41,913 nt of DNA from Acidobacteriota bacterium (GTDB taxonomy: Bacteria; Acidobacteriota; Terriglobia; Bryobacterales; Bryobacteraceae), in contig CANIVU010000083.1 of NCBI GenBank assembly GCA_947470805.1, forward strand, positions 1 through 41,913, written 5' to 3'. Within the stretch, counting starts at the first letter, position 1, and each line of letters begins with the position of its first letter. Shown here in pieces: positions 36,434 through 41,913 of this stretch. The translations under genes were made by a program, and so were the position numbers. The notes under the pieces are model-generated. The model made no database searches. It was not told the origin of the DNA and saw nothing but the letters and a program-made list of their open reading frames with translations.

Positions 36434-38437
36434 ATGCGCAAATTTTCGGCTCTCTTGCTGGTAGCGGCCCTCTGTGGCCAGGACTTGAAGTTCGAGACGA
36501 GTTCGCAGCTGGTGGTGGTCAACGTGACCGTCAAAGGCAAAGACGGCCAACCGCTTACCGGATTGAAAAAAGAGGACTTCCGCGTCTATGAAGACGGCAA
36601 GCCGGTCAATCTTTCGATCTTTGAATACCAGGAATTGAGTAAAGAGGTCCTCGCCGCGGTCCCGATCCCGAAACCCGCGCCGCTCGCCGTCAAGCCGCCG
36701 CCGGAGGAATTGGAACCGGCGCCGAAGCCCTCCTTCCGCGATAAACGGCTGATGGTATTGTTTTTCGACTTCACCAGCCTGCCGCAAATGGACCTGATTC
36801 GGGCGAAAGAAGCCGCTTCGGAGTTCCTGTCCAAGCAAGTGACCGCCTCCGATCTCATTGCCCTGTATACGTTTAACACCAAATTAAAAAAGGTGGTGGA
36901 TTTTACCGGCGACCGGGAAGAATTGTTGAAAACGGTACAGAGTTTCGGCGTCTCCGCCGGCGTCGAGCAAGACGCCGCCGCCACCGATGTTGTTGAAAAC
37001 GTGGAAGATGAAGACGGCGCACTGGTTACCGACGAGACCGAGTTCGCCATTTTCAATACCGACCAGAAGCTGGGCGCGCTGGAGGATCTCTCCAAGGAAT
37101 TAGCGGTAATTCCAGAGAAAAAGGCGGTGGTCTACTTCTCGAGCGGCGTAGGCAAGAACGGCATGGACAACCAGAGCCAGCTGCAGGCCGCGGTGAACGC
37201 GGCGGTGCGCGGCGGGGTGGCGTTGTACCCGATCGATGTGCGCGGTTTGATCGCTATGGCCCCGGCAGGCGACGCTTCCAAGGGCGCGCCGCGCGGCACG
37301 GCCATCTTCAGCGGCGCCCAGCAACGGCAGACGCGCGACCGGGTGAACGACCAGCAGGAAACGCTCTTCACACTGGCGGCGGACACCGGCGGCAAGGCTT
37401 TATTAGACTCAAATGACCTCGCTTTAGGCATCAAAAACGCGCAAAAAGACGTAGAAAGTTACTATACTTTGGCGTATTATTCGTCCAATTCCGCCAAGGA
37501 TGGGAAGTTCCGGAAGATCAAAGTGGAGCTAACGAACCGAAAGGAAGCCAAGCTCGACTACCGTCCGGGATACTACTCAGACAAGATCTGGAACCAGTTC
37601 GACACCTCCGATAAGGAGAAGCAGTTGTCGGAGGCGATGGGGCTGGGCAACCCGGTAACGGAACTCCCGATGGCGGTGGAACTCCTTTATTTCCGGCTAG
37701 ATAAGAACCGGTACTACGTCCCGATGGCGGTGAAGATTCCGGGTTCGAAGGTGGGCGTGAAGTCCGGGAAGACCGATCTGGACTTCGTCGGAACCGTGAA
37801 GGACTCGAAAGGCCGGACCGTCGCGTCGCTGCGCGACGCGATCAAAGTGAAACTGCCCGAAGGGGCGGCCGAAAAACTGGCCCAGCGGAGCCTGCTCTAC
37901 GACGCCGGGTTCCAGCTAACTCCTGGAAAATACACGATCAAGGTCCTGGCTCGCGAGAACCAGGAGGGGAAACTGGGAACCTTTGAAGCCAAGTTCACTG
38001 TGCCCGATCTGGACCAGGGCGGGGCGGCGGCGGTGAGCAGCCTGGTGTTGGGGACGGGCCGGGAGACCATGGCGGCGCTGGTGGGGAAGGCCGGTAAACC
38101 AAAGAAAACCGGAGAGTTAAATCCACTTATCCAGGACGGGAAGAAACTGGCGCCAAGCGTCACCCACGTCTTCCGGCGTCCGCAGACGATGACCGTTTTC
38201 AGCGAGACCTACACGCCGGGCACGATGGCGCGATTGGCGCTGTTTCACAACCGGAAGCAGATCTGGCAGTCCGCGCCACTGCGTGCGACCGCCGGGCGGA
38301 ACGGCGTTTTCTCCCTGGAGACGGCGGTGCGCCTAGGCCGTTTGCAGCCGGGAGAATACGTCTGTCAACTGACCGTGGTGGACCCGGTGGCACAGAAGTT
38401 TGAAGTGCGCCGGGTACCGATGTCTATCGTTCCTTAA
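36434..38437 (+). CDS. Secreted VWFA-related protein (acidobacterial type)
   Basis: This 667-residue protein has a short signal peptide (MRKFSALLLVAALCGQ), then the VVVNVTVKGKDGQPLTGLKKEDFRVYEDGKPV domain that opens VWFA-related acidobacterial proteins. A von Willebrand A-like domain spans about 100-320 (RLMVLFFDFTSLPQMDLIRAKEAASEFL, DLIALYTFNTKLKKVVDFT, KAVVYFSSGVGKNG, VALYPIDVRGL). The metal-site sequence is DFTSL rather than DxSxS. The C-terminal half (about 390-667) is beta-rich and unrecognised. It probably mediates protein-protein contacts in the periplasm or at the surface. It is one base downstream of the glycine-rich barrel gene, so the two products probably work together. Confidence 0.87.
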   Translation: MRKFSALLLVAALCGQDLKFETSSQLVVVNVTVKGKDGQPLTGLKKEDFRVYEDGKPVNLSIFEYQELSKEVLAAVPIPKPAPLAVKPPPEELEPAPKPSFRDKRLMVLFFDFTSLPQMDLIRAKEAASEFLSKQVTASDLIALYTFNTKLKKVVDFTGDREELLKTVQSFGVSAGVEQDAAATDVVENVEDEDGALVTDETEFAIFNTDQKLGALEDLSKELAVIPEKKAVVYFSSGVGKNGMDNQSQLQAAVNAAVRGGVALYPIDVRGLIAMAPAGDASKGAPRGTAIFSGAQQRQTRDRVNDQQETLFTLAADTGGKALLDSNDLALGIKNAQKDVESYYTLAYYSSNSAKDGKFRKIKVELTNRKEAKLDYRPGYYSDKIWNQFDTSDKEKQLSEAMGLGNPVTELPMAVELLYFRLDKNRYYVPMAVKIPGSKVGVKSGKTDLDFVGTVKDSKGRTVASLRDAIKVKLPEGAAEKLAQRSLLYDAGFQLTPGKYTIKVLARENQEGKLGTFEAKFTVPDLDQGGAAAVSSLVLGTGRETMAALVGKAGKPKKTGELNPLIQDGKKLAPSVTHVFRRPQTMTVFSETYTPGTMARLALFHNRKQIWQSAPLRATAGRNGVFSLETAVRLGRLQPGEYVCQLTVVDPVAQKFEVRRVPMSIVP

Positions 38438-38468
38438 TCTCCCATTTGGGTGGGCGGCGGGCGGGGTT

Positions 38469-38477
38469 TGGTATAAT
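38469..38477 (+). promoter_or_regulatory. Extended -10 promoter of the lysozyme-like gene
   Basis: TGGTATAAT is a perfect TGn-TATAAT element. Six bases later (38484) is the A of an ATG, so the predicted transcript starts on that ATG. No convincing -35 hexamer is present. Confidence 0.65.
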
Positions 38478-38483
38478 TAAGGC

Positions 38484-38611
38484 ATGACCCCTTGGTAAAT
38501 TCCCTTTATAGGGTCACGCAAACCCGCCTGCATTTCCTGCAACGAATTCACCCCCAACGGATCTACTAGCAGATCCCGAAAACCCCCAAACAAACATAGA
38601 GGTGACCGATT
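38484..38611 (+). ncRNA. Structured 5' leader with switch-like pairing (candidate cis-regulatory RNA)
   Basis: The ~128-nt leader holds three segments: A TGACCC (38485-38490), B GGGTCAC (38511-38517) and C GTGACC (38602-38607). C lies within the ribosome-binding region AGAGGTGACC of the gene at 38612. B can pair with A (six base pairs) or with C (six base pairs), but not both. B:C would hide the Shine-Dalgarno sequence. Between them is a separate hairpin, GGATCT-ACTAGC-AGATCC (38559-38576). The leader begins with a four-codon ORF, ATG ACC CCT TGG TAA (38484-38498), that covers A. It does not match a riboswitch class I know. Confidence 0.45.
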
Positions 38612-39082
38612 TTGAAACGATGGATAACCAAAGGATTGGTGTTGTGTTCTATTTTTCTGCCGCCCGCGGCGACATCTCCGGCCGAAGTACTGACGGAGAA
38701 ACACTACACCAAGGACTCCCGGTTCCAGAGAATCAAGGCGTTTTTCCAGAAACGCTCGTGCCCGATGGAGCGCTACGCAGCTGACCTTGTAGCCGCTGCC
38801 GACCAGAACCATCTGGACTGGCGACTTCTTCCGAGTCTGGCGCTCGTGGAGAGCAGCGGCGGCAAGGTGTTCGTTAACAACAATGTCTTCGGCTGGGACT
38901 CCTGCCGTCAAAAGTTCCCGAGCATTCAGGCAGGGATCCACACTGTCGCCGAGCGTCTTGCGAATTCGCCATACTACCGCGGCAAAAGCCTGGAGGGCAA
39001 GCTACGGGCGTACAACCAGAATCCACACTACGTGGCAACGGTGAAGAAAGTGATGTCCCAACTGGCTACAGAGCCCTGGTAA
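38612..39082 (+). CDS. Exported lysozyme-like (glucosaminidase/lytic transglycosylase-type) protein
   Basis: This 156-residue protein has a signal peptide (MKRWITKGLVLCSIFLPPAATS) and a compact lysozyme-fold segment: AADQNHLDWRLLPSLALVESSGG with probable catalytic E80, then NNNVFGWDS and RLANSPYYRGKSLEGKLRAYNQNPHYVATVKKVM. This resembles peptidoglycan glucosaminidases and soluble transglycosylases, but short. C50 and C98 could form a disulfide. It probably cuts or binds peptidoglycan in the periplasm. The start is TTG at 38612, supported by AGAGGTGA eight bases upstream and by the signal peptide. Its expression may be controlled by the leader described above. Confidence 0.8.
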   Translation: MKRWITKGLVLCSIFLPPAATSPAEVLTEKHYTKDSRFQRIKAFFQKRSCPMERYAADLVAAADQNHLDWRLLPSLALVESSGGKVFVNNNVFGWDSCRQKFPSIQAGIHTVAERLANSPYYRGKSLEGKLRAYNQNPHYVATVKKVMSQLATEPW

Positions 39083-39097
39083 TCGGTTATCCGATTA
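39080..39097. terminator. Stem-loop that spans the stop codons of two convergent genes
   Basis: TAATCGG, TTAT and CCGATTA form a 7-bp stem with a 4-nt loop. The left arm begins with the plus-strand stop TAA (39080-39082), and the loop holds most of the minus-strand stop (39087-39089). It lacks a T-run, so it may stabilise 3' ends or stall polymerase rather than act as a classic terminator. Confidence 0.4.
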
Positions 39098-39233
39098 CAC
39101 GGACTCCGAAATAGAGACCACCGAAAACGAGGACGCTGGCGGCGGCAACGGCAAGCCATAGCATCATTCGTTCGGAATTGGACGTTTGTTCTTTCGCGTC
39201 CTTCTTCATGGTTTCGTCGAGGCTATCAAACAT
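39087..39233 (-). CDS. Small single-pass membrane protein (48 residues)
   Basis: AGGAGGT (39245-39239, minus strand) lies five bases before the ATG, an excellent ribosome binding site. The product starts MFDSLDETMKKDAKEQTSNS, a charged N-terminal region, followed by one hydrophobic helix at about residues 24-46 (MLWLAVAAASVLVFGGLYFGV) and ends RVIG. It has no known family that I recognise. It converges with the lysozyme-like gene, four bases between stop codons. A function in the inner membrane is likely; the partner is unknown. Confidence 0.75.
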   Translation of the reverse strand: MFDSLDETMKKDAKEQTSNSERMMLWLAVAAASVLVFGGLYFGVRVIG

Positions 39234-40752: not shown

Positions 40753-41913
40753 TTATTTATCGAGACCGAACCGGTCAATGAGGCGGTAGAGAGTTTTGCG
40801 TTCAATACCGAGAATTTTCGCGGCTTTGCTTTTGTTGCCGCCAGTAGCGGCGAGCACCTTGCGAATCTGGTCGACCTTGGCGTCTTCGAGGGTTTCGCCG
40901 GCGGTGTCGCGGCCTTCGCTATCGGCGATGGCGTCGTTGACGGCCGATTCGTCGATGCGGCCCTGGGGGGCAAGGATGACGAGGCGTTCCATCAGGTGCT
41001 GGAGCTGGCGGACGTTGCCGGGCCAGGTGTGGACGTCGAGGGCCTTCACGCCGCTCTCGGTGAGAATGGCGTGGGTGAAGTAGCGGCTGTTGTAACGGTC
41101 GAGGAAGGTCTGGGCGAGGAGCGGCACGTCGCCACGGCGTTCGCGGAGAGCTGGAATTTCAATGCGTACCACGTCGAGGCGGAACCAGAGATCCTCGCGG
41201 AACTTGCCCTGTTCGACGAGCTGGCGGACGTTTTTGTTTGTGGCGGCGACAATGCGGACATCGATGGGACGGCCGCGCGGGGCACCGATGGGCCGGATTT
41301 CGCGTTCCTGGAGGACGCGCAGGAGCTTGGCTTGGAAATTGAGATCGATGTCGCCGATTTCATCGAGGAAGATCGTTCCCCCGTTGGCGGATTCAAAGAC
41401 GCCCTGGCGGTCGCGGTCGGCCCCGGTGAACGAGCCCTTCATGGCACCGAAGAGTTCGCTTTCGAGCAAAGACGGCGGGATGGAGCCGCAATCGACGGCG
41501 ACGAAGGGCTTTTCCGAGCGGCGGGAGTAGCGGTGGATCATCCGGGCGATGAGTTCCTTCCCGGTACCGGTTTCGCCTTCGACGAGGAGAGTGGCGTCGG
41601 TGGGGGCCACTTTGGCGAGCACCTTAAAGATGTCGACCATAAGGGCGGAGGAGCCGATCATCTCGGTTTCCGGGATGTCGTCGATGCGGGTTTCCTTCTC
41701 CTCCGGTTCAACGAACGACGCTTCGGCACGGCGGATCTTTTCCACCATGTCGTCGAGATCGAAAGGCTTGGCCAGGTAGTCGAACGCGCCGCCGCGGGTG
41801 GCGGCCATGACTGTTTCCATGGAACCGCGGCCGGACATAAGGATGACGGCGCAATCCGGACGGGAGGTGCGGGCGGCGTTCAGAACATCCAGGCCGGTAC
41901 GCTCATCGAGATA
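40753..41913 (-). CDS. Sigma-54-dependent NtrC-family response regulator (5' end outside window)
   Basis: The open frame covers 386 codons up to the right edge. The partial receiver is YLDERTGLDVLNAARTSRPDCAVI, GGAFDYLAKPF, with its phospho-Asp just outside the window. The AAA+ domain has Walker A GETGTGKE, the sigma-54 contact loop written GSFTGA instead of GAFTGA, Walker B IFLDEIGDI, and sensor motifs LREDLWFRLDV-like FREDLWFRLDVVRI. The Fis-type helix-turn-helix is at the C-terminus (NKSKAAKILGIERKTLYRLIDRFGL). It activates sigma-54 promoters after phosphorylation. Its sensor kinase is not in view. An internal ATG at 41838 is not the real start. Confidence 0.93.
   Translation of the reverse strand, partial: YLDERTGLDVLNAARTSRPDCAVILMSGRGSMETVMAATRGGAFDYLAKPFDLDDMVEKIRRAEASFVEPEEKETRIDDIPETEMIGSSALMVDIFKVLAKVAPTDATLLVEGETGTGKELIARMIHRYSRRSEKPFVAVDCGSIPPSLLESELFGAMKGSFTGADRDRQGVFESANGGTIFLDEIGDIDLNFQAKLLRVLQEREIRPIGAPRGRPIDVRIVAATNKNVRQLVEQGKFREDLWFRLDVVRIEIPALRERRGDVPLLAQTFLDRYNSRYFTHAILTESGVKALDVHTWPGNVRQLQHLMERLVILAPQGRIDESAVNDAIADSEGRDTAGETLEDAKVDQIRKVLAATGGNKSKAAKILGIERKTLYRLIDRFGLDK

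Follow-up and report, generated by a model that had tools for sequence, protein, structure and literature searches.

Very short reading frames at the predicted transcript start of a hydrolase gene in Acidobacteria suggest control of the gene by a ribosome that lands on the message tip

The window, i.e., the whole stretch of 41,913 nucleotides that was analysed, contains a leader that is followed by a gene for a protein with a Glucosaminidase-like domain (Table 1). The PF01832 match of the 156-aa product had an E-value of 2.4e-05 and a score of 25.4 bits, which is under the Pfam gathering score of 30.2 bits, and it bears out the lysozyme-like gene that an earlier note on this DNA had seen downstream of the leader. 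Among proteins with a solved structure, a profile of the hydrolase family retrieved one, the phage enzyme PDB 8yxk, a cell wall hydrolase (E 0.00036). The glutamate E80 is invariant across 12 aligned hydrolase homologues, and, with FlgJ-like enzymes as the analogy, we take it to be the catalytic acid. The gene product is a glucosaminidase-like cell-wall hydrolase that is probably secreted. By eye, the gene has its own Shine-Dalgarno sequence: AGAGG in the window, and a sequence resembling AGAGG or AAGGAG in the relatives aligned with it.

Table 1. Features of the leader and the hydrolase gene (window positions).
Feature	Position	Strand	Remark
Extended -10 element TGGTATAAT	38469..38477	+	
Leaderless mini-ORF ATG ACC CCT TGG TAA (MTPW*)	38484..38498	+	ATG 6 nt after the -10 (leaderless as predicted)
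Segment A, TGACCC	38485..38490	+	pairing not conserved
C-rich, G-poor leader, candidate Rho loading stretch	38493..38589	+	C minus G 0.196 (L001)
Short hairpin CCCT-TTAT-AGGG	38502..38513	+	3 nt after the mini-ORF stop; four pairs; alternative to A:B
Segment B, GGGTCAC	38511..38517	+	changed in L058, deleted in L059
Possible hairpin GGATCT-ACTAGC-AGATCC	38559..38576	+	by eye
Shine-Dalgarno-like AGAGG	38598..38602	+	by eye; final base is the first base of segment C
Segment C, GTGACC	38602..38607	+	kept in L057 and L058; GTGACA in L059 (no B)
TTG-start gene, 156 aa	38612..39082	+	signal-peptide-like N terminus (by eye), Glucosaminidase-like domain PF01832

On its 3′ side the hydrolase gene adjoins a convergent ORF of 48 residues (39087-39233, strand -) with the start MFDSLDETMKKD and an AGGAGG-like site, the product of which looks, from its sequence, like a small membrane protein. 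The same small-ORF start was seen by eye beside the hydrolase gene in L002, L004, L006, L009, L010, and L011. Ten proteins encoded in the neighbourhood at six named loci were compared with Pfam, which revealed no function common to all six; MacB/FtsX-type permeases were present in two loci (L127, L083) and a sigma-54 response regulator in L100, and four of the ten proteins had no Pfam match. A sigma-54 activator is also encoded in the window (40753-41838).

Of 101 relatives, 52 have a homologue of the hydrolase, and so do, at an E-value of 1e-10, 200 of the 237 genomes of the family. In named genomes (Bryobacteraceae, Candidatus Solibacter, Sulfopaludibacter, Paludibaculum, and others) 168 stretches with a homologue were confirmed, 80 of which were kept. 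Most genomes of the same genus harbour a less similar second copy, e.g., G000:C15:52495-52863 (L241). The second copies (L241-L253 and L256 in the genus, L224 and L232 outside) had a best -10 score of at most 8.9 and lacked the layout described below; L250, L251, and L256 nonetheless have an ATG at 6-8 nt and count as 3 of the 98 leaders with that spacing.

The promoter and the four-codon frame of the earlier note are both present where it had placed them. A scan found no -35/-10 pair, and no -35 match for TGGTATAAT. At the 16 loci of the window's genus, TGNTATAAT is present in 15 and TGGTATACT in L006, and the -10 is followed after exactly 6 nt by ATG in 11 loci and by TTG in three. The start codon is missing in two (L005 has ATA and L011 has CGG); L012, a locus near-identical to L011, has a start. 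For a comparison across the family, 156 non-redundant loci out of 201 were used, second copies included, and 154 of these had enough upstream sequence; the other 45 (L057 among them) duplicated another locus over the first 60 nt of the gene and were left out. The -10 sites were chosen blind to the downstream letters using hand-set weights, and sites with a score of at least 10.9 were regarded as strong. The best extended -10 was followed by an ATG after 6-8 nt in 98 of the 154 homologous leaders, and in 79 of the 114 with a strong -10. Within the latter group 33, 21, and 25 leaders had the ATG at 6, 7, and 8 nt, and each other offset from 0 to 39 was represented by 0-6 leaders. These counts are not independent, because the homologous loci are related. 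Comparable -10 sites elsewhere in the same loci served as a small control, and none of the ten had an ATG at 6-8 nt. The spacing of the ATG from the -10 is conserved and fits a transcript that would begin at or within 2 nt of the mini-ORF, a start that is predicted from the -10. The comparison fixed the position of the start codon, and, as far as the alignments tell, the 5′ end, i.e., an extended -10 followed by a start codon, is the conserved part of the leader in Bryobacteraceae-like Acidobacteria.

The same comparison revealed the frame and its shortness. Within the 79 leaders a stop follows the ATG after 0-4 sense codons in frame 0 in 56 cases, vs. 5 and 9 cases in frames 1 and 2, and shuffled leaders yielded 10.9 ± 3.2 early stops, with a maximum of 18 in 200 rounds. 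Exactly three sense codons after the ATG were found in 37 leaders. The 120 stretches among the matches listed represent 55 genera (second copies left out; five loci have no genus label), and a short ATG frame occurs in 29 genera, only a GTG frame in one, only longer frames in 11, and none in 14. The window's genus contains MTPW*, MTPL*, MDSL*, MSRL*, MSQT*, MW*, MR*, ML*, and TTG-stop. Other leaders fall into a Pro-stop group (MSVP*, MSIP*, MDAP*, MEAP*, MPVP*) and an MxxTH group (MRTTH*, MSMTH*, MCTAH*), and in L077, L082, L083, L115, and L190 the ATG is directly followed by the stop. At the same place L124, L130, L202, L208, L217, L236, L237, and L238 have longer frames with an M-x-x-x-Tyr start (e.g., MRFGYSRC), which are possibly another type of leader peptide. 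As frames with zero or one sense codon occur in several genera, a classical amino-acid-sensing attenuator does not apply. An attenuator of the trp type was rejected also because the short frames listed, inspected by eye, contain no run of codons for one amino acid, and a scan of window positions 38380-38720 found no intrinsic terminator.

The Pro-stop group allowed the coding potential of the frame to be addressed. The fixed CC in 23 rows of the type xxxP* is a circular result, because these rows had been picked by their Pro codon. The coding test was redone on a clade of the protein tree, which avoids such a selection. The tree comprised the 78 loci with enough coding sequence, and the clade that holds the Pro-stop loci has 13 rows and a support of 99/96. 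Twelve rows were scored, 11 of which end in Pro-stop, while L133 reads MTSS*; the remaining row of the 13, L110, has, by eye, the frame MEAP* and a weaker -10. The differences in codons 2-4 of the 12 rows were located at third positions in 142/198, at first positions in 87/198, and at second positions in 62/198 comparisons. The synonymous fraction was 0.357 vs. 0.138 in column shuffles, and 25 of 5000 shuffles reached 0.357. In the alignment of this one clade Pro-stop is kept with synonymous changes; outside the clade the peptides vary freely. The codon-position pattern gives indirect support for a translation of the mini-ORF, and from the comparisons taken together we consider it quite likely that the mini-ORF is conserved and translated.

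The 237 genomes were also searched with two patterns. The start-stop pattern TGNTATAATN{6,8}ATGTRA had four sites, all of which lie upstream of the hydrolase gene (backward control pattern: 2 sites), and the MSVP*/MSIP* pattern TATAATN{5,8}ATGTCNRTNCCNTA had nine sites, again all upstream of the hydrolase gene (control: 1 site); the assignment to the gene was made by eye against gene coordinates. Within the scope of these two patterns, the comparison ties the short-frame layout to one gene. In the window's own genome (8.7 Mb) TGNTATAAT occurs at 21 sites vs. 18 for the backward pattern, and an ATG follows at 6-8 nt after four of the 21, vs. two for the backward pattern. The four sites are the hydrolase leader, L257, L258, and L259. 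L257 and L258, with genes of 142 and 399 aa, are probably leaderless, because the ATG is located 7 nt after the extended -10; at L259 the ATG opens a frame of nine codons, which precedes a frame that by eye is PhoH-like.

Promoters have an initiation preference for CAT, and the start codon could be a by-product of a preference for CA or CAT at +1, the short ORFs being due to chance. The ATGs at four of the 21 own-genome sites, two of them the starts of probable leaderless genes, can be read in this way; the backward pattern has two. A by-product would, however, not be expected to show stops enriched in frame 0 only, a codon-position pattern in the Pro-stop clade, and two patterns that match one gene only, and none of the ten sites of the small control had an ATG; this explanation is therefore regarded as very improbable. 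Instead, the alignments support the promoter with the mini-ORF at the predicted transcript start as a conserved cis element. The earlier note had proposed a riboswitch or a leader-peptide attenuator, and with this conserved element the leader-peptide half of the proposal was on the right track, while the riboswitch and the classical attenuator were not upheld.

The switch had been envisaged as two mutually exclusive helices, A:B and B:C. The three segments are indeed present, and in the window as well as in L057 (98% identity to the window) both helices can form all 6/6 pairs. The four alignable sequences did not, however, reveal any covariation, an outcome that the earlier note had named as refuting the switch. 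In L058 (85% identity) both helices are reduced to 5/6 pairs, because the same base of B is changed and neither A nor C compensates, and in L059 (79%) both have 0/6 pairs, because B is deleted. An equally exact triple of segments arose in 45 of 5000 shuffles, and among 114 homologous leaders three have one, that of the window being one of the three. Folding of the leader together with the gene start was no better than that of shuffled sequences (z 0.10). Rfam covariance models, a check that the earlier note had suggested, gave 0 matches at the gathering score in the window, and thus no riboswitch class, c-di-GMP-I included; a permissive scan of 38400-38680 yielded one chance-level match to a microRNA family (E 6.2) and again no c-di-GMP-I. 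The three-segment switch was rejected on these grounds, and despite the perfect six-pair helices in the window and in L057, a riboswitch at this site is hardly credible.

Structure of a different kind was found after the stop codon. For 15 of the 22 leaders of the Pro-stop set, the distance from the stop to the start of the best hairpin is 10-14 nt, and for the other 7 it falls outside this range. The mean folding z was -1.13, with 12 of 22 below -1, and examples of stems are GGGAGA/TCTCCC, GGGAAC/GTTCCC, and GCGGGAT/GTCCCGC. RNAalifold predicted a three-pair hairpin after the stop for the Pro-stop group and nothing clear for the MxxTH group. The post-stop folding z had a mean of -1.33 in the window's genus (n=13) and a weak mean of -0.70 in the other groups (n=37). 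Sixteen picked stems, which were copied from the hairpin scan and some of which were trimmed to a common length, show pair changes in both arms at positions 4-6 of the stem; L195 of this tally sits in the "other" hairpin group, since its start had been placed at a TTG further upstream. The short hairpin after the stop in the window is possibly the counterpart of the post-stop hairpin of the homologues, and is weak here. At the place of the second hairpin of the window, pairing by eye is possible in L058 (GGAGATCT/AGATCTCC) and in L059 (AAAGATCT/AGATCTTT). A ribosome with a stop codon in the A site covers about 9-10 nt beyond the stop, and the hairpin of the Pro-stop set would therefore be located near the front edge of the ribosome.

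In MxxTH-type leaders (L078, L087, L079, L100, L103, L097, L114, L086) an inverted repeat contains or adjoins the mini-ORF, e.g., by eye, ATGCG-CGCAT or GACTC-GAGTC, and part of the conservation in this group could be due to RNA structure. Together with the hairpins after the ORF in other groups, such repeats are what would be expected if the selected feature were a 5′-terminal stem-loop that stabilises the mRNA and the mini-ORF were incidental. However, no stem-loop was seen by eye over the ORF in Pro-stop and start-stop leaders, which keep ATG and stop all the same, and the bias for frame-0 stops spans the whole family. A selected stem-loop is thus an improbable explanation.

The leaders are also C-rich, albeit modestly: C minus G had a mean of 0.077 (n=108) vs. 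0.023 in 49 control upstream regions (p 0.0013), and the regions upstream of the promoter lean toward C as well (65/111, vs. 90/112 of the leaders). Directly after the stop of 59 short ORFs the sequence, a candidate rut-like stretch, has 48% C and 16% G at 0-5 nt, and G peaks with 37% at 10-15 nt.

Other leaderless messages are bound by 70S ribosomes. We give about an even chance to the reading that the leader contains a minimal upstream ORF, itself leaderless, by which a ribosome is brought to the tip of the mRNA and the fate of the C-rich leader is set. A 70S ribosome would bind to the 5′-terminal AUG of the hydrolase mRNA and would terminate almost at once. It would occupy the 5′ end for a while, because termination would be slow at Pro-stop or at a start directly followed by a stop. 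The hairpin of the Pro-stop leaders would begin about at the front edge of this ribosome, and the two together would prevent the start codon from pairing and leave the 5′ end occupied. A full-length, translated mRNA would be favoured in the occupied state, and in the free state the C-rich leader would be exposed to premature Rho-dependent termination or to decay from the 5′ end. The cue would be the state of the ribosome and not a ligand of a nascent peptide. In this reading the transcript start, translation, ribosome parking, and the effect on Rho or decay are inferred. Points that speak against it are the 14 of 55 genera with no ATG at 6-8 nt and the 11 with longer frames only, the two loci of the window's genus that lack the start codon and the three with TTG, the free variation of the peptides outside the Pro-stop clade, the four-pair hairpin of the window with its 3-nt distance from the stop, and the modest size of the C excess. 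That ribosome occupancy controls the fate of the mRNA has, in our estimate, slightly less than an even chance, and Rho as the executor is weaker still and rather unlikely.

A 5′ AUG could also serve simply as a stand-by site that recruits ribosomes, raises their local concentration, and boosts initiation at the hydrolase gene; the stop would prevent a wasteful peptide, and nothing would be sensed. Such recruitment accounts for the drift of the peptides and the shrinking of the ORF to ATG-stop in several genera, and ptrB of E. coli (PMC4965119) offers a precedent. It leaves unexplained that Pro-stop is kept with synonymous changes and that the post-stop hairpin of the Pro-stop set has its spacing, and we regard it as possible, with a chance well under even.

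The reading that a ribosome on the message tip sets the fate of the leader can be sharpened to a gene-specific "ribosome cap," which is put forward tentatively: a minimal leaderless ORF, down to AUG-stop, would park a 70S ribosome abutting a hairpin on the hydrolase mRNA, and survival of the message would be set by the availability of leaderless-competent 70S ribosomes and by the speed of termination. AUG-stop elements exist in plants, and the cap, if true, would be their bacterial counterpart and, to our knowledge, the smallest cis-regulatory ORF in bacteria. As far as we know, bacterial regulatory uORFs are normally read as peptide sensors; a leaderless frame that is found across the family, is reduced to start-stop in some genera, and keeps its place at the predicted transcript start of one gene points to control by the presence of a ribosome alone. 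MSVP*, MW*, MR*, and M* form a natural test series, and the state of translation would, if this is true, be linked to peptidoglycan turnover in Acidobacteria. The best full-text literature matches listed, a coverage outside which many subscription papers lie, contained no report of such an element.

Several known systems share single traits with the hydrolase leader. The tnaC leader of E. coli is a Rho-linked attenuator that ends in Pro-stop, and TnaC is a nascent peptide of 24 residues that senses tryptophan. Slow termination at Pro-stop and a C-rich stretch adjoining the stop would be common to both; in contrast to TnaC, the four residues found here are too short for a sensor in the ribosomal tunnel. 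The mgtQ frame of Salmonella is likewise a very short uORF, and its translation frees downstream expression; it differs in having eight codons and its own Shine-Dalgarno sequence, in its intergenic position, and in that a stem covering the downstream ribosome-binding site mediates its effect (PMC8092293). The leaderless uORFs of mycobacteria also are small first cistrons with a proposed cis-regulatory role, and they include candidate cysteine-rich attenuators (PMC4633059); unlike in these cysteine-enriched candidates, no amino acid is repeated here, and the frame can be ATG-stop. The 5′-uAUGs of E. coli, of which ptrB, rcnR, and pnp are examples (PMC4965119), bind 70S ribosomes and alter downstream expression. 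Changing the 5′-uAUG of ptrB to AUC lowered downstream expression to <8%, and a start-stop version restored 40% (PMC4965119). The hydrolase leader resembles these mRNAs in having an AUG at the mRNA 5′ end, here a predicted one, and a downstream gene with a Shine-Dalgarno sequence. In contrast, the E. coli uORFs among the rows listed in PMC4965119 encode 5-26 residues and precede unrelated genes, whereas most frames described here stop after 0-4 sense codons beyond the start codon, and 29 genera have them in front of one and the same gene family. As described in these sources, none of the ptrB-type, mycobacterial, or mgtQ precedents is the present element, which often has a shorter frame and is bound to one gene family.
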